From Gammaproteobacteria bacterium (GTDB lineage Bacteria > Pseudomonadota > Gammaproteobacteria > Steroidobacterales > Foliamicaceae), in assembly GCA_009838035.1 (NCBI GenBank), contig VXSK01000002.1, forward strand, positions 1 through 64,000: DNA of 64,000 nt. Reading direction: 5' to 3'. A program made the translations under genes and the position numbers. The notes beneath the pieces were generated by a model. That model had not been told where the DNA came from, searched no databases, and was given only the letters and a program-made list of their open reading frames with translations. This document shows, piece by piece, positions 17,309 to 25,191 of the stretch (position 1 is the first letter of the stretch; each line of letters starts with the position of its first letter).

Positions 17309-20300
17309 TCAGGGGGCGGGGCAGGCCGAATCGCCGAGGCGCTGGTCGAGCACGATGAACTGATTGGCCGCGACGTCCGCGCAAACGAGTTCGGCGCCGC
17401 CGGGCCATTCAACGCGAACGCTTTCGGCCATCGCCGCCTGCCCCAGCCCGAAATGCAGGTCCGGCGGGTTCTGGCTGTTGTAGTTGCTGTTCGCCTGGCT
17501 GAGCCTGAGCTGCGTCTGCGTGCCGAAACCCTGGCCGACGTCGGCCGTGACGGTCACCCGTGCGCCGAGGGCGTCGGTGTTCGGCGCAGCTCCTACCAGG
17601 CGGATGTTCAGGAAGGCCCGTCCCGACGCGCTGCCGGACTGGTTTTGGTAGAACTGCAGGCCGGTCGAATGATCGAGCAGCACGATGTCGATGTCGCCGT
17701 CGCGATCGTGGTCGAAGCAGGCGAGGCCGCGCCCTTCGGAGGGGGCGTCGATACGCCAGTCGTGCGCCGCCTCGGTAAACGTCCCATCGCCGTCGTTGAT
17801 GAACAGCCGCGAGGGTTTGGCCTGCAAGATGTCCTTGGTCAGCGTGTCGTATTCGGTTTTCGTGTCGTCGTCAAACGGGAAGTAGCCGAAACCGTTCACA
17901 TGGAAGATGTCGGCAAAACCGTCGTTATTGAAATCCGCCGCGCAGGCGCCCCAGCCCCAAAGGCCGTTCCGTACGCCGGCCGCGTCGGTGATGTCCTCGA
18001 ACGCGATCCCTTCCGCCGTGCTCGCGTTGCGGTAAAGGCGATTGCCGGTCCTGCCCCAGAGCCCGCGCGGTATGGTCGCATCGTAAATCGACGTTACGAA
18101 CCATTCGAGATTGCCGTCGTTATCGATATCGAGCAGCGCGCTGCCCATGCCGTTCTCGTCCGTGATTACGTCACGGTTGGTCTGGTCAACGAAGCTTGGT
18201 CCGTCGGACAACGAACCGGCGTTGTGCAGGGTCACGCTGGTCTCGAAATCCGAGGCGACCACGAGGTCGGTAAGCCCGTCGCCGGTGAAATCGGCGAAGG
18301 CCGGCGTGAAATTGAACTCCTGATTGATGTCGTTCGCGGTCGTGCCCGCCTGCGCGTCCCAAGGATAAAGCGTCGTGCCGTCGTTCTTCCACAGCGCGGG
18401 CGCCGTTCCCGCGGTCCCCAGGCCGGACCAGTGGCCAAGATAGAAATACGGGAAGCCGCTTGCGTCGAGCGGGGCGGCCGAAATGCCGTAGGTCGGGCGC
18501 GTCATGGGCAGATCGGCAATCGGTTCGTAGCGCCCCGATGCGTGCTTGGCGAACACCGGCACAGCAACGTCGAAGAGGTTGCCGAATAACAGCTCGCGGC
18601 GATAGTCGCCATTGAGATCTACGCTGGCGGCGCCCGTGTAACTCTTCTGGGTAAGGCCGTCAAGCCATTCGACGGCCTGGAACCACGAACCCTCCATGTT
18701 CCGATAGGTCCGTATGCCGGTTCGTTGGTCGCCGCCGGCAAAGACGATGTCGGCCCAGCAATCGTCGTCGAGGTAGGTTGCCGTTACGCCGCCGGCAATC
18801 ATTGCAACCTCCAGATTTTGCAGATCGTCGGTCCAGGTTTCGAACAGGTAACCGTGGCCGTCGATGAGTCCGAAGCCCGTATCGCTTCTGCGCCGGAACG
18901 CCAGGTTGCCGGTGTTGCGGGCGCCCGCAAGCCCATTGCCGCAGTTCTCGACGTCAGCGAAGGTCGCGAGCGGTTGGGTCGGCGGGAACGCGAGCGGGAC
19001 TTGTTCCGGATAGTCCTCCGGGCTGCTCGGGTTGAAGAAGACCGGCGCACCGGAAGAACGGTCGCGCACGAACAGATTGCCGTCCGGGTCGTCGTCCCCG
19101 GACGGCGTCCACGCATCGATGCAGTTCTCGTCGGTGACGCAGTCGTCGCTCAGTGTTTCGAGGAAAGCGACCAATTGATCGACTTCGTTGCCCGGCAAGG
19201 TCTGCGCGGGAAGAATGTCTTCGCTCGCGGCAAAGCTGGACGCGTCAATCGCAGCGCGCGTGTGCGGTTCGGCGTGATCGTATTCCATCCCGAGCCGGCT
19301 GAACTGGTCGAGCTCGAGCAGCATGAAATCGAAGCTGTTTACGCCTGCGCGTGGATCGGCATGGTAGGCGATCGCGTCGGCGAGCGTCGCGAAGCTGCCC
19401 GCGTGGCCATATGGCGCGGTTTCCGCCACGTTGAGCAGGCTCGGCGTTCGGAACGCGAAGCGGTCTGACTCCGCCAGCGTTTCAAGCCAGCGGCCAAGGT
19501 CGGACCGGTCGGCGCGCACGAATCCCCGGCCGAGCTGCGGAAAACCGACATTGTGGAACTTTTCGTCGGTAAAGCGGTCGCCCGCGTGGCATTGCGCGCA
19601 TCCGTGTCCGCCGTCGTCCGGATCGCGCAGGAACAGCAGGGCGCCGCGCTTGGCGTCATCCGAAATGGCGCCGTTTTCGCCGCCCAGGAACCGGCGCCAC
19701 GGCGTATCGACGAAAATCTGCGAGTTCATGTAGGCGCCCAGCGCGCGCTGCAAATTGGGCATGGTGATCACTTCGTCGGCCGCCGCCTCGGGCGTATCGA
19801 AGGCGAGCCGGAACTCCGCAAGCCAGTTGGCGGGACCGTTCGGATCCTGATTGAGCGCGGTATCGACTTCGCCGCGCAGCCGGCGGATCACGTGCCCCCG
19901 GTATTCGTCCGCCGTGCTGTATTCGGTGTAGCGGAATCCGCGCATCTCGTTGTTGTTGTTGAGCGGCAGCTTGGCCGAGAACTCAAGCAGACCCGACACC
20001 GGGCTTGAGTCGCTGCGCTGCCGGGATTCCGGAGTCTGGATGTGCTGTCCACGCCCGCCCGGCAGGGTTTCGTCGTCGAGCACGGCAATTCCGCCGTCGA
20101 AGGTCAGCACCCGGTCGAACAGTGCGGCGTTGAATGTCGTGGTCGAGTTCCGGTGCACGTTGGGGCCGCCGTCCGCTCGCGGATCAAGATCCTGCTCCGG
20201 ATCGACCTGGCGTCCGGGACCCAGCGTGGCGCTGTTTGCCGCCGCCACGCCCACTGCCAGCGACAGTCCGTCGCCGCCGGCGAAGTCGGGATGGTGGCAA

Positions 20301-20623
20301 CTGCCGCAGGACACGTCGAAGCTGGCCGAGAGCGTCTGCGTGAAGAATAGGAGTTGGCCCAGTTTCACGAGCGGATCGTCGTCGGGCCGGGTTTGCACGG
20401 CATCCCTGGGCGTCGCCGGATCGCCGTTGAGTTCCAGCTCGGTCACCGCGACGGCGCGAACGTCGTCGTTCAGGGGGTTGACCGGCGGCGGCGGTGGCGG
20501 CTGCGTGGGAGGCGGCGGGCTCGGCGGCGTACTGCCGCCACCACCGCCCCCGCAGGCCGCGAGCGTTACCGCCAGCAGCACCCCGAGCGCAGCGCCAGCC
20601 GCCTCATGCGGCCGCCTGTTCAT
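17309..20623 (-). CDS. lipoprotein fusing a MauG/CCP-type di-haem peroxidase to a CRTAC1-like FG-GAP and ASPIC/UnbV module
   Basis: The 1104-residue protein starts at ATG 20623, giving MNRRP and a lipobox ending LAAC (Cys24) followed by Gly and Pro tracts. About residues 60-490 form a di-haem cytochrome c peroxidase domain. Haem sites are CGSCH (106-110) and CAQCH (342-346), with GDRFTDEKFHNVGF and FRTPSLLNVAETAPYGHAGSF as in MauG and MbnH. From about 600 to 990 come FG-GAP/VCBS repeats with Ca-binding DxNxDG-like loops (DFNNDGFAD, DIDNDGNLE). An ASPIC/UnbV domain (about 1000-1090) ends the protein. The fusion is unusual. It is the last gene of an operon with a TlpA-like lipoprotein (4-bp gap) and a TonB receptor. 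I infer secreted oxidation of a captured ligand or protein. Confidence 0.9.
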   Translation of the reverse strand: MNRRPHEAAGAALGVLLAVTLAACGGGGGGSTPPSPPPPTQPPPPPPVNPLNDDVRAVAVTELELNGDPATPRDAVQTRPDDDPLVKLGQLLFFTQTLSASFDVSCGSCHHPDFAGGDGLSLAVGVAAANSATLGPGRQVDPEQDLDPRADGGPNVHRNSTTTFNAALFDRVLTFDGGIAVLDDETLPGGRGQHIQTPESRQRSDSSPVSGLLEFSAKLPLNNNNEMRGFRYTEYSTADEYRGHVIRRLRGEVDTALNQDPNGPANWLAEFRLAFDTPEAAADEVITMPNLQRALGAYMNSQIFVDTPWRRFLGGENGAISDDAKRGALLFLRDPDDGGHGCAQCHAGDRFTDEKFHNVGFPQLGRGFVRADRSDLGRWLETLAESDRFAFRTPSLLNVAETAPYGHAGSFATLADAIAYHADPRAGVNSFDFMLLELDQFSRLGMEYDHAEPHTRAAIDASSFAASEDILPAQTLPGNEVDQLVAFLETLSDDCVTDENCIDAWTPSGDDDPDGNLFVRDRSSGAPVFFNPSSPEDYPEQVPLAFPPTQPLATFADVENCGNGLAGARNTGNLAFRRRSDTGFGLIDGHGYLFETWTDDLQNLEVAMIAGGVTATYLDDDCWADIVFAGGDQRTGIRTYRNMEGSWFQAVEWLDGLTQKSYTGAASVDLNGDYRRELLFGNLFDVAVPVFAKHASGRYEPIADLPMTRPTYGISAAPLDASGFPYFYLGHWSGLGTAGTAPALWKNDGTTLYPWDAQAGTTANDINQEFNFTPAFADFTGDGLTDLVVASDFETSVTLHNAGSLSDGPSFVDQTNRDVITDENGMGSALLDIDNDGNLEWFVTSIYDATIPRGLWGRTGNRLYRNASTAEGIAFEDITDAAGVRNGLWGWGACAADFNNDGFADIFHVNGFGYFPFDDDTKTEYDTLTKDILQAKPSRLFINDGDGTFTEAAHDWRIDAPSEGRGLACFDHDRDGDIDIVLLDHSTGLQFYQNQSGSASGRAFLNIRLVGAAPNTDALGARVTVTADVGQGFGTQTQLRLSQANSNYNSQNPPDLHFGLGQAAMAESVRVEWPGGAELVCADVAANQFIVLDQRLGDSACPAP

Positions 20624-20627
20624 TGAC

Positions 20628-21869
20628 TTACTGATCGGAGGGCGAAGGAACACCGTCGATCAGTTCGGCCAGCTTTACGTCGAGTTTTTCGCCGCGCAGG
20701 TTCTTTGCCACGATGGTTCCTTCAGTGTCGATCAGAAAGTTCATCGGGATTGCGGTCACGCCGAATTGCGCGGGGACGGGGCTGTCGTAGGCAAGCAGGT
20801 CGCTGGTATTGATCCAGGGGATGGCGTCTTCCTCGCTGGCTTCGAACCAGTCATCGCGGTCGTCGTCCAGCGAAAATGCAAAAATCTCGAAACCCTCGGG
20901 CCCGTAGTGCTCGTAGCTCGCTATGAGGTTGGGGTTCTCCGCGCGGCAGGGTCCGCACCAGGAAGCCCAGAACTCCACCAGCGTGAAATTGTTCGCCGTC
21001 CGCGAGTCCTGCAGGTGATACTCAAGTTCGTCCAGGCCGATGCTCGAAAAGTCCTCGACCTGCGCGCCTTCCTGCATGGCTGCGTAGGCGGCCCGCAATT
21101 CGATCCCCTTGTTGACCCGGCTGCGCATGGCCACCAGGGCAGGGTGGGCGCCAAGCTCAGTCTCCAGCGCGTTCAGGCGCGTAAGAGCGTCCTGGCCCCC
21201 GAGGCCGCCAAGCTGCACCGCGTAAAGGCTGGCCAGTGGGTCGTCCGGCGATTCCGCAATCGCGCGCAGGGCATCGAAGCGAATCTTGTTCAGGGCCCGG
21301 TAGCGTTCCCAGGATTCGTCCTGGAGCTCTTCATAGCCCTCGTCGCCCTCTTCCAATCCCTTGCGCCGATCCATGACGTCCCGGTAGGCATTCAGGGCCT
21401 CGTCGTATTCGTCGCTGTCCTGCCAGCTGGAAACAATCTGCTGCTGATACGGCCCGCCCCGGGCCCTCAGCCCAGCCACGTCGCCAGCGTACACAATAGT
21501 GATATCCACGGGCTCGAGGATGAACTGCACCGATCCCTTCGATTCTTCGTCGACGTTCATGACCGACAGCCGGACCGCTCCGCCCTGGTCGAATTCGGCT
21601 GTCAACTCGAACTCCCCGCCATTGATTTCCGCGCGGACGATCTCGTCGGAACCCCCAAGCACCGAATTTCCGCGGCTCAGCACTGCTTCGCCTTCCTCAA
21701 GCAGTTCGATCAAATTGCCGGAAATGGTGTATTGCGGTGTGGTATCGGCGCTCGCCACAGGTTCCCGCGAATTACCGCAACCCCATGCTGTCAGCGCATA
21801 GCAGGCGACAATCACGGTCAAGGGAAAGAGCCTCTTCGAGAGGAGAAGCCCAGTGTGATTATGTTTCAT
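20628..21869 (-). CDS. TlpA/AhpC-type thioredoxin-fold lipoprotein
   Basis: The 413-residue protein has an N-terminal signal ending near TAWGC (Cys31, probable lipid attachment). A beta-rich DUF4369-like region (about 45-130) and an alpha-helical middle follow, then a C-terminal thioredoxin domain with FWASWCGPC and the cis-Pro region GVTAIPMNFLID. It would act as a periplasmic thiol-disulfide reductase or haem/thiol-maturation partner. The start at ATG 21869 avoids an implausible upstream extension. It lies 4 bp before the di-haem/CRTAC1 gene and about 120 bp after the TonB receptor. Cytochrome c maturation or protection of the haem protein is a reasonable role, inferred from context. Confidence 0.88.
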   Translation of the reverse strand: MKHNHTGLLLSKRLFPLTVIVACYALTAWGCGNSREPVASADTTPQYTISGNLIELLEEGEAVLSRGNSVLGGSDEIVRAEINGGEFELTAEFDQGGAVRLSVMNVDEESKGSVQFILEPVDITIVYAGDVAGLRARGGPYQQQIVSSWQDSDEYDEALNAYRDVMDRRKGLEEGDEGYEELQDESWERYRALNKIRFDALRAIAESPDDPLASLYAVQLGGLGGQDALTRLNALETELGAHPALVAMRSRVNKGIELRAAYAAMQEGAQVEDFSSIGLDELEYHLQDSRTANNFTLVEFWASWCGPCRAENPNLIASYEHYGPEGFEIFAFSLDDDRDDWFEASEEDAIPWINTSDLLAYDSPVPAQFGVTAIPMNFLIDTEGTIVAKNLRGEKLDVKLAELIDGVPSPSDQ

Positions 21870-21906
21870 ACGTGTTCTCCAGCCGAAAACTTGCGCCTTG
21901 ACGACG

Positions 21907-21941
21907 GCGCCCGTCGCCACCGGGAGGGCAGCGACGGGCGC
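21907..21941 (-). other. intercistronic hairpin between TonB receptor and TlpA-like gene
   Basis: GCGCCCGTCGC (21907-21917) and GCGACGGGCGC (21931-21941) are perfectly complementary over 11 bp with a 13-nt loop. In the minus-strand direction of the operon no U-tract follows, so it is more likely an mRNA-stability or processing element than a terminator. On the plus strand a T-run (21946-21950) follows, which could stop antisense transcription. Confidence 0.6.
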
Positions 21942-21992: not shown

Positions 21993-24900
21993 TCAGAACG
22001 ACTTGTGTATGTTCAAGCGGTAGGAGCGTCCCTGGGTCCATTCCGTGAGCGGATTGATCTGATTCGTGGCGCGTTCGCCGGTTGACTCGGTTATCCGCGT
22101 GTACTTGGAAAAGGCATTGGTCAGGTTATTCACCGTTAGCGTCAACTCAACGCCCCTCAGCCAGTTCGGGGATGAGAATAGAGTGTTGTCGTCAAATCCG
22201 TAACCCAGTACCAGGTCGTAGAGCGTTGCCGGCTCGTCTATATAGGAGAAAAAGCTGCCGATGCGCCGGGTTTCGTCACCTCCCTCTACGTCGAGGCTGA
22301 GGAACAGGCTCCCGCGCGACCAGGTGAACTGTGCGGTGGTCTTGTGTTTGGGAACCGGTGGCAAGACGGTGTCTTCCGGCCCGGAATCGTCACGGCTTGT
22401 CACCAGGTCATGCACAATGCCGCTGGCGGGGTCCACTTGTACCCTGTGCTTGTTGGTGTAGGTGCGCCGAACGGTGATGTTGTATTCGTTAAGGCCCATC
22501 TCCCACTCGTAACGGAACTCGTAGTCAATACCCGAGCGTTCGAGCGCCGAGACGTTGATCCAGCGGTCATCCAACACGTAGATGTCATCCGCTTCGATAT
22601 ACATCACGTTGGACGGCAGGTCATCGAGGTAGATGATCGGCACCGGCAGCTTGTAGATCCGGTCCTTGTAATCCGTGTCGCTCCAGGCCACCTTGAAGAA
22701 AACGCCGGGCAGAAAAGCCGGAGAAAATTCGCCCGACAGGCTCAGCGTGTCGGCGGTTTCGGACTTGAGTTGATCATTTCCGCCGCTGTATCCGAATACC
22801 TTGTCGCCGGGCAGCGTAGTGATCGAGCCGCTCCCGCCTGGTCGGTAATACCACAATGACCGGGGGTTGCTCTCGTACAGGGACTTTTGCAGCAACTGAT
22901 TCAGTTGCGGCGCCACAAAGGCAGTCGAAACGTTTGCCTTGAACAGCATGCTGTCGTTCGGGCGATACACCGCCCCCCCGGACCAGGTGAATTCGCTTCC
23001 CGGATCCTTGGCTTCGACCGACTCGGCTGTCGCGGATTCCGTTTGCCGGTAATCGACTTCCACGTTCGAGTAGGAGTCGTAGCGCCCGGAAAACGTAAGG
23101 TTGAGGCGCTGGATGCCTGACATGGCGTTATCGGCGCCAATCAGCGGTATAAGGCCTTCCACAAAGGCGGCGTGGTTATCGCGGCTGATCTGGGTGTTGA
23201 ACGGAGAGCTGCCCGTTGCTGTGGCGCTGGCCAGATAGTTGGCCATTTCATTGAATGAATCCAGGGTGTCCTGACGGTAGTCGTAGCCCACCACCAGCGC
23301 TATCGTGCCGCCCGGAGCGCTGAACAGTTCGCCCCGCGCCAGGGCCTCGAATTGCAGTTGTTCATTCTTCGCCCCGGAGTACACGTCAGGGATGATGTAC
23401 GGGGAGATATCGCCGAACGGGTTGATGGGATCAGGCGGGGCGCCGTAAACGGTGCAGTTGCCGCCGAAGAAGGAGCTGTAGCTGTAGCGGGTGCCGCCCA
23501 GCTCCGCTACCTTGTCCGCGCACGCCGGTTCCAGGATGCGGCTGAAGCGGCCAATGACGGCCTCGCTTACTCCATCTGAATTGACTCCGAGGCCATACGC
23601 CGGATCCCTGACGTTCAGGCGCTGTGTGTCCGTTTCGGAGCTCGAACTGCTGAAATCCGCTTGCCAGGACCAGGTGCCGAACGTTCCTTCCACGCCCAGG
23701 CCCACATACAACTCGTCCCTCGTCGAGTCATACGTGGTGGGCGGATAATCGGGCGTCGTGCCGGTCAGCGATACCTGGGTCCCGAAGGGATTGAAGGGGC
23801 TGTTGGCGTGCAGCGTTCCGCCAACCTGGATAAGACCGGATTCCTGTTCGGCGTCCTTTCGCGTGGCCCGGATGTTGCCGTGCAGAACCAGCGTGCCGGC
23901 CAACTCCTGGTCAACCCCGAGAAAAACCGAGTGGCGCTGGCGTTCCGGCCGCAGGCTGTAGCCCTGCTCGGCAGCCTCGCCCCAGTGCGGCTCGCCGACA
24001 ATGTCGAGAGAACTCAGGCTGTCGGTGTGCTGGAAGCCGGCCGGCAGCGTGAAGTCATTGACGCAGGTGGCCATGGTTTGCTGCTCGGCATCCAGAGCGG
24101 CGTATTCATCCCGGGTGATGACCCGGCCGCCAAGCTCGTACACCACTGCGCGCCGTCGATCCCAGATGGGGGCATCGGAGTTACAGCCATCATCGAAGAA
24201 ATTGGTCCAGACGCGAATCTGCGGGCCGGCCGCGGTGTTCTTTTGATTGGTGGTCAGCAGGGTGCTTCGGTTCGATACAATGATCGAATCACGGTTGGAA
24301 GCGTCCAGGCCGGTATCGCGGAAGTACTCGTAACCGGCGTTCAGGCGCCCGCTTCCCCAGGAAAAGCCGCCGCCGATATTGCCTTGCGTTTCGCTGTAGC
24401 CGCTCTTGTGCGGGCGGCCGTAGTTCAAATCCAGTTCCACTCCGGCGTAGTCGCGGCGCGTAATGATGTTCACCACGCCGCCCACTGCGTCCGAGCCGTA
24501 GATGGCGGATGCGCCGTCGAGCAGGATTTCAATGCGATCCACCATTGACAGCGGAATCGTGGAAATATCGGTCACTCCACCCAGAATACCGCTGTAACCC
24601 ACTCGCCTGCCATCGATGAGAATAAGCGTGGATTCGCTGCCCAGACCGCGCAGGTTCACGGTGGACGCGCCGGTCACGTTGCGCGCGCCGTTCAGCGTGG
24701 AGCCGTATGTTTCGTTGGTGGAGTTAACGTTTTGCGGAAGTTGCCGCAGAACGCGCGCCAGCGTGAGTTCTCCCGAAGCGCGGATGTCCTCGCGATCCAG
24801 CACGACAAGGTTACCGGACAGCTCGGAGGGCGGGCGGTTCAGGCGGCTGCCGGTGACCCGCACGTCGGCCAGTTCCAGAGCTTCCTCGTATTCCGCATCG

Positions 24901-25028
24901 CCGGCCTCTTCCTGGGCTGTAGCGACGCCAATGCTCAGTGCCAATCCTGCAATGACTGAAAGAAGCCAGGCAAAAGCCGATCCCGATTTTCGCCAGGTAA
25001 GGTCTCTGTGTTCGTCAAGTCTGTTCAT
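21993..25028 (-). CDS. TonB-dependent outer-membrane receptor
   Basis: The product has 1011 residues when started at ATG 25028 (MNRLDEH), which has GGGGC upstream and gives a signal peptide ending GVATAQ. The plug domain (about 45-200) carries VTGSRLNRP, TLILIDGRRVGYSG, DRIEILLDGASAIYGSDAVGGVVNIITRR. The long barrel ends at a terminal Phe (HKSF). An upstream in-frame start would add 22 residues ahead of the signal peptide and is rejected. It is the first gene of the operon that continues into the TlpA-like lipoprotein and the di-haem/CRTAC1 fusion. This is reminiscent in outline of methanobactin-type receptor plus MbnH loci, although no MbnP or precursor peptide is visible. Confidence 0.92.
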   Translation of the reverse strand: MNRLDEHRDLTWRKSGSAFAWLLSVIAGLALSIGVATAQEEAGDAEYEEALELADVRVTGSRLNRPPSELSGNLVVLDREDIRASGELTLARVLRQLPQNVNSTNETYGSTLNGARNVTGASTVNLRGLGSESTLILIDGRRVGYSGILGGVTDISTIPLSMVDRIEILLDGASAIYGSDAVGGVVNIITRRDYAGVELDLNYGRPHKSGYSETQGNIGGGFSWGSGRLNAGYEYFRDTGLDASNRDSIIVSNRSTLLTTNQKNTAAGPQIRVWTNFFDDGCNSDAPIWDRRRAVVYELGGRVITRDEYAALDAEQQTMATCVNDFTLPAGFQHTDSLSSLDIVGEPHWGEAAEQGYSLRPERQRHSVFLGVDQELAGTLVLHGNIRATRKDAEQESGLIQVGGTLHANSPFNPFGTQVSLTGTTPDYPPTTYDSTRDELYVGLGVEGTFGTWSWQADFSSSSSETDTQRLNVRDPAYGLGVNSDGVSEAVIGRFSRILEPACADKVAELGGTRYSYSSFFGGNCTVYGAPPDPINPFGDISPYIIPDVYSGAKNEQLQFEALARGELFSAPGGTIALVVGYDYRQDTLDSFNEMANYLASATATGSSPFNTQISRDNHAAFVEGLIPLIGADNAMSGIQRLNLTFSGRYDSYSNVEVDYRQTESATAESVEAKDPGSEFTWSGGAVYRPNDSMLFKANVSTAFVAPQLNQLLQKSLYESNPRSLWYYRPGGSGSITTLPGDKVFGYSGGNDQLKSETADTLSLSGEFSPAFLPGVFFKVAWSDTDYKDRIYKLPVPIIYLDDLPSNVMYIEADDIYVLDDRWINVSALERSGIDYEFRYEWEMGLNEYNITVRRTYTNKHRVQVDPASGIVHDLVTSRDDSGPEDTVLPPVPKHKTTAQFTWSRGSLFLSLDVEGGDETRRIGSFFSYIDEPATLYDLVLGYGFDDNTLFSSPNWLRGVELTLTVNNLTNAFSKYTRITESTGERATNQINPLTEWTQGRSYRLNIHKSF

Positions 25029-25191
25029 GTGTGTTGCCCCTAAGTGTGTTGGGAAGCGGAAGAGGCGCTCCCCGCCAATCGACCTACTATACACCTTCGA
25101 GACCTACATTTTGGCGGGATTCCCGAACGGCCGGGAAGCCCGCAATGGTGCCAAATTGCGTCGTCCGGCCATAGGGAAAACAGGGCATCGG

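Follow-up and report, generated by a model that had tools for sequence, protein, structure and literature searches.

What can a bacterial lipoprotein do that carries a di-haem enzyme domain at one end and a CRTAC1-like propeller at the other? The question is raised by an open reading frame (ORF) in the window, the stretch of 64,000 nucleotides (nt) of the gammaproteobacterial contig VXSK01000002.1 that was analysed here. The frame lies on the minus strand, runs from an ATG at 20623 to a stop at 17309, and encodes 1104 residues; the plus-strand reading of 17309-20623 contains stops, and the earlier, sequence-only reading of the locus named no strand. We find that the fusion is real and conserved, and that it belongs, as a variant, with the di-haem peroxidases and not with MauG. 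The domain combination is apparently undescribed in the literature searched, where we found no description of a fusion between a cytochrome c peroxidase (CCP) and CRTAC1, the nearest report being PMC12758564.

The sequence-only reading had described a single 1104-residue frame with a lipobox, two CxxCH haem sites, FG-GAP repeats and an ASPIC/UnbV domain, and this is borne out by the sequence and by Pfam. The domain search of both halves that it had proposed returned CCP_MauG (1.3e-20), FG-GAP_3 (5e-23, three stretches), FG-GAP (8.6e-10) and UnbV_ASPIC (9.1e-17), all above the cut-offs. The protein starts as an outer-membrane lipoprotein does, with a lipobox and its cysteine (LAAC24), and a glycine at +2 agrees, under the +2 rule, with sorting to the outer membrane. 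A proline-rich tether follows Cys24 and precedes the di-haem domain. Two CxxCH sites in a bacterial CCP (bCCP) fold make up the first half, and an FG-GAP propeller with a C-terminal ASPIC domain, the composition of the CRTAC1/ASPIC family, makes up the second. An AlphaFold model of residues 50-1104 has a mean pLDDT (per-residue confidence) of 84.9 and a pTM (predicted TM-score) of 0.64, which leaves the mutual orientation of the domains open. In a fold search with this model the N-terminal half matches MacA (Z 29.3, root mean square deviation (rmsd) 2.9, 304 aligned residues), the MbnH-like 6e1c (Z 27.4) and MauG 3l4m (Z 26.8), and the C-terminal half matches murine CRTAC1, cartilage acidic protein 1, 9etn (Z 35.6, rmsd 2.6, 451 aligned, 22% identity), a solved animal protein without a haem domain; the CRTAC1 sequence match is 1e-11. 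The predicted folds are thus those of a bacterial di-haem peroxidase/MauG and of CRTAC1. CRTAC1-like proteins are present in bacteria and animals, and to our knowledge they have no settled function.

The same full-length fusion is carried by eleven other records, so the homologues of like architecture that the earlier reading had called for do exist. Identity to the window protein is 93% in L025, 83% in L026, 74% in L027, 61% in G530 and 47-49% in G342, and it is 36-38% for the full-length fusions of a member of the Hyphomicrobiaceae (L028), Alteromonas sp. C1M14 (L029), L030 and L031. The fusion of G468, whose ORF is open at the contig edge, shares 39% in the CCP half and 34% in the CRTAC half. 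A complete Alteromonas macleodii plasmid (L174) also bears the fusion, annotated as "FG-GAP-like repeat-containing protein". The linker is under purifying selection, with a ratio of nonsynonymous to synonymous substitution rates of 0.15 against L025, 0.49 against L026 and 0.18 against L027 (Nei-Gojobori script). In two genomes the halves are adjacent genes on the same strand, 4 nt apart in G133 and slightly overlapping in G486. We regard the junction as real because of the eleven other full-length records, the constrained linker and these two genomes with neighbouring half genes. Two genes joined by an assembly error or a frameshift, a case raised by the sequence-only reading itself, are excluded by the same fusion in independent assemblies, the complete plasmid included, and by the constraint on the linker.

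Matches at E 1e-40 or better were found in 15 of 369 genomes of a class sample, two of them with full fusions (G000, which is the window's own genome, and G342). At E 1e-60 or better, 24 of 396 genomes of an order sample match, with six fusions (G000, G007, G004, G040, G530, G468), and with the Alteromonas protein as query 5 of 398 genomes of a phylum sample match at E 1e-60, with two fusions (G000, G1028). Where relatives of the haem half stand alone, most lack a neighbouring CRTAC1 gene. Maximum-likelihood trees were built for each half (38 haem rows and 29 CRTAC1 rows; several loci were left out, and the L170 copy of the same protein stood in for L010). In the haem tree all 11 fusion rows fall into a single group (support 95/99); in the CRTAC1 tree they are grouped with one long-branch stand-alone row inside (support 99/97). 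Both trees contain the branches A+C (window, L025-L027, G530, G342) and B+D (L028-L031, G468). One old fusion followed by later spread fits best. The lipobox is also present in L025-L027, G530 and G342.

The label "MauG-type" given by the sequence-only reading holds for the di-haem MauG/bCCP fold; it does not hold for the residues around the haems, where His421 replaces Tyr294 and F175 the tryptophan, or for the scores, which lie below the MauG and MbnH cut-offs. The residue count covers 112 di-haem ORFs, all 112 candidates being usable; they come from scans seeded by the window fusion protein, and Nitrospira predominates among them. Identical tails count once, the protein of G468 enters twice (L142, L155), L030 and L031 are near-identical, and the plasmid copy L174 is not counted. 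The column of the sixth ligand of haem 2 is fixed at H421 because three comparisons agree. In the P0001 alignment H421 stands opposite a Met of MacA, which we take to be the haem ligand; the Tyr-type profile aligns its own Tyr with the bCCP Met; and 3orv, the Y294H chain of MauG, outscores wild-type 3l4m with the His-type profile (98.9 vs 95.2 bits) and with P0001 (39.1 vs 37.1), and falls below it with the Tyr-type profile (151.4 vs 155.3).

All 11 fusion proteins have His at this position, which is Tyr294 in MauG. The inter-haem Trp is replaced by F in the window protein, L025, L026 and L027, by H in G530 and G342, by Y in L028-L031, and by N in G468. Among the 112 ORFs, 83 are Tyr-type and 81 of these have the inter-haem Trp, against 2 of the 26 that are His-type. 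His-type ORFs retain, in 26/26 cases, the acid-base Glu and a Pro close to haem 1 (E226 and Pro220 in the window protein). The fusion has the catalytic Glu of bCCPs, presumably Glu113 of MauG by spacing, and His421 instead of their Met as sixth ligand of the high-potential haem. At the MauG Gln103 position, also by spacing, four His-type ORFs have Ser and one has Ala. In three stand-alone di-haem relatives among the 112 (e.g. L109, L113, L115) the haem-2 ligand position holds Asn or Met; the sequences suggest repeated ligand switching in this di-haem subfamily.

The BthA variant Y463H shows no near-infrared bis-Fe(IV) feature and retains H2O2 reduction with an external donor, and MauG Y294H is likewise without the feature (PMC6405878). 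BthA itself has Ser at the bridging Trp position yet forms bis-Fe(IV), so that the Trp is not always needed (PMC6405878); therefore the loss of Trp alone proves little, and it is the loss of Tyr that carries the argument. With His at the Tyr294 position and a non-Trp bridge in 11/11 fusions, the MauG-type tryptophan oxidation that the earlier reading had in mind finds no support, and intramolecular Trp oxidation of the propeller appears unlikely from these residues.

With the TTQ_mauG model (cut-off 444) the fusion protein reaches 83 bits and with the MbnH model (cut-off 363) 102 bits, and membership of MauG/MbnH is ruled out by the residues (His421, F175) and by these curated cut-offs. The best NCBIfam match is TIGR03981 (His-Xaa-Ser system-associated MauG-like protein) at 179-186 bits, 178.7 for the window protein, below the cut-off of 340; the likeness is to the haem half, and the model spans that half alone. 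The bCCPs MacA, CcpR and P. nautica CCP resemble the fusion in fold (Z about 28-29), in two CxxCH sites and in the catalytic Glu, and are its best sequence matches in the PDB. Classical bCCPs differ in having what we take to be a Met sixth ligand, an inter-haem Trp and no CRTAC1, where the fusions have His and F, Y, H or N. MauG, MbnH and BthA share the fold and the two haems, but MauG and BthA have a Tyr sixth ligand and MauG a Trp bridge, and the fusions have neither. In the beta-gamma part of hydrazine synthase a propeller is likewise joined to a bis-His di-haem CCP-like part, and clusters of non-anammox hydrazine synthase homologues adjoin a CRTAC1 gene in some clades (PMC12758564, PMC12607021). 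There, however, the propeller is a seven-bladed beta subunit with no fused CRTAC1, and membership of the hydrazine synthase gamma family was rejected at a sequence match of only 33.7 bits. SACCP/MopE and CorB/CorA of methanotrophs are also surface or periplasmic di-haem CCPs co-transcribed with a partner (PMC3912023); unlike the fusion they are separate genes with a copper-binding partner and presumed MauG-like chemistry.

In the window the fusion is the last of three co-directional genes in an apparent operon, after a TonB receptor, 72 nt, a TlpA/ResA-like thioredoxin and 4 nt. The TonB/TlpA pair is all that the clade A loci have in common. The TonB gene is upstream in the same apparent operon in the window, L025 and L026, and a divergent neighbour in L027; a partial TonB gene is upstream in G530, and FecI-like, FecR and TonB genes lie near the fusion of G468. 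It lies downstream of the fusion in L029; in L030, L031 and the A. macleodii plasmid it is also downstream, with one more gene in between, the call in L030 and L031 being based on 68% identity to the L029 receptor. No TonB gene was seen near the G342 fusion, and the L028 contig ends.

The order kept by Alteromonas within clade B is sigma-54 regulator, pyrroloquinoline quinone (PQQ) alcohol dehydrogenase, Rieske protein, 152-residue protein, fusion and TonB receptor, with a gene for an alpha-hydroxy acid dehydrogenase (oxidase) between fusion and receptor in some loci, not in L029. The dehydrogenase matches TIGR03075 above its cut-off (536.7 bits), and the gaps between dehydrogenase, Rieske and fusion are 89/13/13 nt. 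The block from dehydrogenase to fusion is also found in an alphaproteobacterium as far as the contig runs (about 72, 45-49, 44 and 51% identity), and the plasmid copy of the operon is near transposases and an aldehyde dehydrogenase gene. The best named match of the L029 receptor is PqqU (333.6 bits, cut-off 1200). The clade B locus has the look of an island for the oxidation of alcohols or diols. Between the Rieske and fusion genes, 4/4 loci examined encode a protein of about 152-158 residues that looks secreted and has conserved cysteines; the copy in L029 matches nothing in Pfam or NCBIfam, and the predicted model is all-beta with a pLDDT of only 69.8.

From the architecture, conservation, residues, predicted folds and gene order of the fusion we infer ligation, a peroxidase-type chemistry and docking. 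We give an even chance to the reading that it is a lipid-anchored envelope redox protein, in which a peroxidase-like di-haem c-type module is permanently tethered to a scaffold of CRTAC1 propeller and ASPIC domain. Haem 1 (His110, an open distal side, Pro220 and Glu226) would be the site where peroxide or another small oxidant reacts, with Glu226 and Pro220 supporting peroxide cleavage, and haem 2, predicted to be bis-His (His346/His421), would pass electrons to haem 1. CRTAC1 would be the docking or scaffold part, holding the module to an envelope partner, and in the Alteromonas branch electrons would probably come from the co-encoded PQQ dehydrogenase/Rieske pair. Because its haem pocket is without the two residues that mark MauG, a role as peroxidase or electron-transfer unit is more probable for the fusion than one as a MauG. 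A more elaborate version, in which the scaffold with its bis-His peroxidase couples a periplasmic dehydrogenase to peroxide, seems to us quite unlikely: electrons would run from PQQ alcohol dehydrogenase over Rieske and haem 2 to haem 1 and H2O2 in clade B, and in clade A the same device at the TonB receptor would oxidise or reduce the imported ligand. The conserved fusion and the adjacent split genes link a haem enzyme to one branch of CRTAC1, which thereby gains a testable role. The split between Trp/Tyr and non-Trp/His is a simple sequence rule that separates MauG-like members of CCP_MauG from those without expected MauG chemistry.

Several observations weigh against the envelope redox reading. 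No lipobox was found in the L028-L031 fusions (clade B). The haem ligation is read from alignment, and the haems are absent from the AlphaFold model. Classical bCCPs possess the inter-haem Trp, whose loss may slow the passage of electrons between the haems. TonB genes are dense, with 73 receptor barrel matches in the 2.9 Mb of G000, about one per 40 kb, which gives a 5-28% chance of one within 5 kb (six genomes); TonB proximity as proof of function was downgraded for this density. PQQ alcohol dehydrogenase is above the cut-off in 3/8 fusion genomes searched and was not found above it in the other five, the window genome included; therefore the Alteromonas context does not transfer to the window branch, for which this enzyme is ruled out as a general partner. 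Tryptophans of the propeller half are enriched in fusions over stand-alone CRTAC1 rows: W956 in 10/11 against 1/16, W597 in 11/11 against 0/16 in a poorly aligned stretch, and W856 in 11/11 against 5/16. As a separate observation, G040 (3.7 Mb) has a striking expansion of 44 PQQ alcohol dehydrogenase family matches, several of them pieces of one gene.

The tryptophans, with the fusion-only C622 (11/11 fusions, 0/16 stand-alone rows), would suit a MauG/MbnH-like post-translational oxidase whose haem domain oxidises a Trp or Tyr in the propeller fused to it or in a docked partner, as would the fold shared with MauG and MbnH and the methanotroph operons of a di-haem protein and a partner with kynurenine (PMC3912023). 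The equivalents of Tyr294 and of the inter-haem Trp are however both lost in all fusions and both kept in 81/83 Tyr-type relatives, the Y294H and Y463H variants lose the bis-Fe(IV) feature (PMC6405878), and the scores are far under both family cut-offs, which makes such an oxidase improbable. A pure electron-transfer partner without peroxide chemistry, which would accept electrons from PQQ dehydrogenase and Rieske in clade B and, in clade A, from a different reductase, has a small but real chance, the best of the alternatives. The clade B operon, with the same gene order on the A. macleodii plasmid, holds dehydrogenase, Rieske and fusion, and no free cytochrome c gene among the genes seen. Against it are the Glu and Pro near haem 1, strictly kept and unneeded by a mere carrier, and the five fusion genomes in which no PQQ dehydrogenase was found above the cut-off.

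Somewhat less probable than the MauG-like oxidase is an oxygenase of the RoxA/FadCcp type, whose substrate would be bound by the propeller or brought in through the TonB receptor. RoxA/RoxB and FadCcp are also di-haem proteins with a bis-His C-terminal haem (PMC10837239, PMC4496055), but in RoxA and FadCcp the second His comes 58-124 residues after the MauG motif and the candidate ligand of the fusion 14, and the haem-1 pocket of RoxA is lined with hydrophobic residues where the fusion keeps Glu226. The lowest probability goes to CRTAC1 as the working part, through ligand or calcium-dependent binding beside the TonB receptor, with the haem domain as an optional add-on. A TonB receptor followed by CRTAC1 in G595 and a haem-less CRTAC1 with an Ig-like part in the syntenic slot of G003 would agree with it; the G003 protein falls outside the fusion group in the tree, and the haem half commonly has stand-alone relatives with no CRTAC1 adjoining them.

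Features of the fusion and its neighbours; positions are those of the window, or of the named locus (aa, amino acids).
Feature	Positions	Strand	Basis
CCP-CRTAC1 fusion lipoprotein, 1104 aa, ATG 20623	17309..20623	minus	Sequence, Pfam, full-length homologues
Signal peptide, lipobox LAAC, predicted lipidated Cys24, Gly at +2	20552..20623	minus	Sequence
Di-haem CCP/MauG domain, ~residues 85-426	19346..20371	minus	Pfam, NCBIfam, fold match
Haem 1 site C106-C109-H110 (C106GSCH110)	20294..20308	minus	Sequence; site in 112/112 di-haem ORFs
F175, inter-haem Trp position of bCCP/MauG	20099..20101	minus	Alignment; column is W in solved bCCPs
E226, aligned to acid-base Glu	19946..19948	minus	Kept in 26/26 His-type ORFs
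Haem 2 site C342-C345-H346 (C342AQCH346)	19586..19600	minus	Sequence
H421, predicted haem 2 sixth ligand (bCCP Met/MauG Tyr294 position)	19361..19363	minus	Alignments, profile scores
Cys pair C495/C501 directly after haem domain, common to most stand-alone relatives	19121..19141	minus	Alignment
CRTAC1-like beta-propeller, ~residues 573-995; Ca-type Dx[DN]x[DN]G loops at 832, 897, 971	17639..18907	minus	Pfam, fold and sequence matches
ASPIC/UnbV domain, residues 1018-1090	17354..17572	minus	Pfam
TlpA/ResA-like thioredoxin, DUF4369-like N-terminus, 4 nt upstream of fusion ATG	20628..21920	minus	Conserved in L025, L026
TonB-dependent receptor, first gene of apparent operon	21993..25094	minus	Conserved in L025, L026
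Clade B operon	L174 3277-15494; L029 2287-13285		
~152-158 aa protein between Rieske and fusion genes	L029 7383-7841; L028 1545-2021; L030 7352-7813; L174 8352-8813		
Haem-less CRTAC1 protein of G003	L170 7503-9572		

In G003, from the same genus as the window, the syntenic place of the fusion is taken by the haem-less CRTAC1 protein, whose Ig-like part is N-terminal. It is flanked by vWA-like, SDR (short-chain dehydrogenase/reductase) and acyl-CoA dehydrogenase genes on one side and by two TlpA-like genes and a TonB receptor on the other. From this one comparison the slot rather than the gene seems to be conserved, because the G003 CRTAC1, which is not grouped with the fusions in the CRTAC1 tree, is not the closest relative of the CRTAC1 of the fusion.

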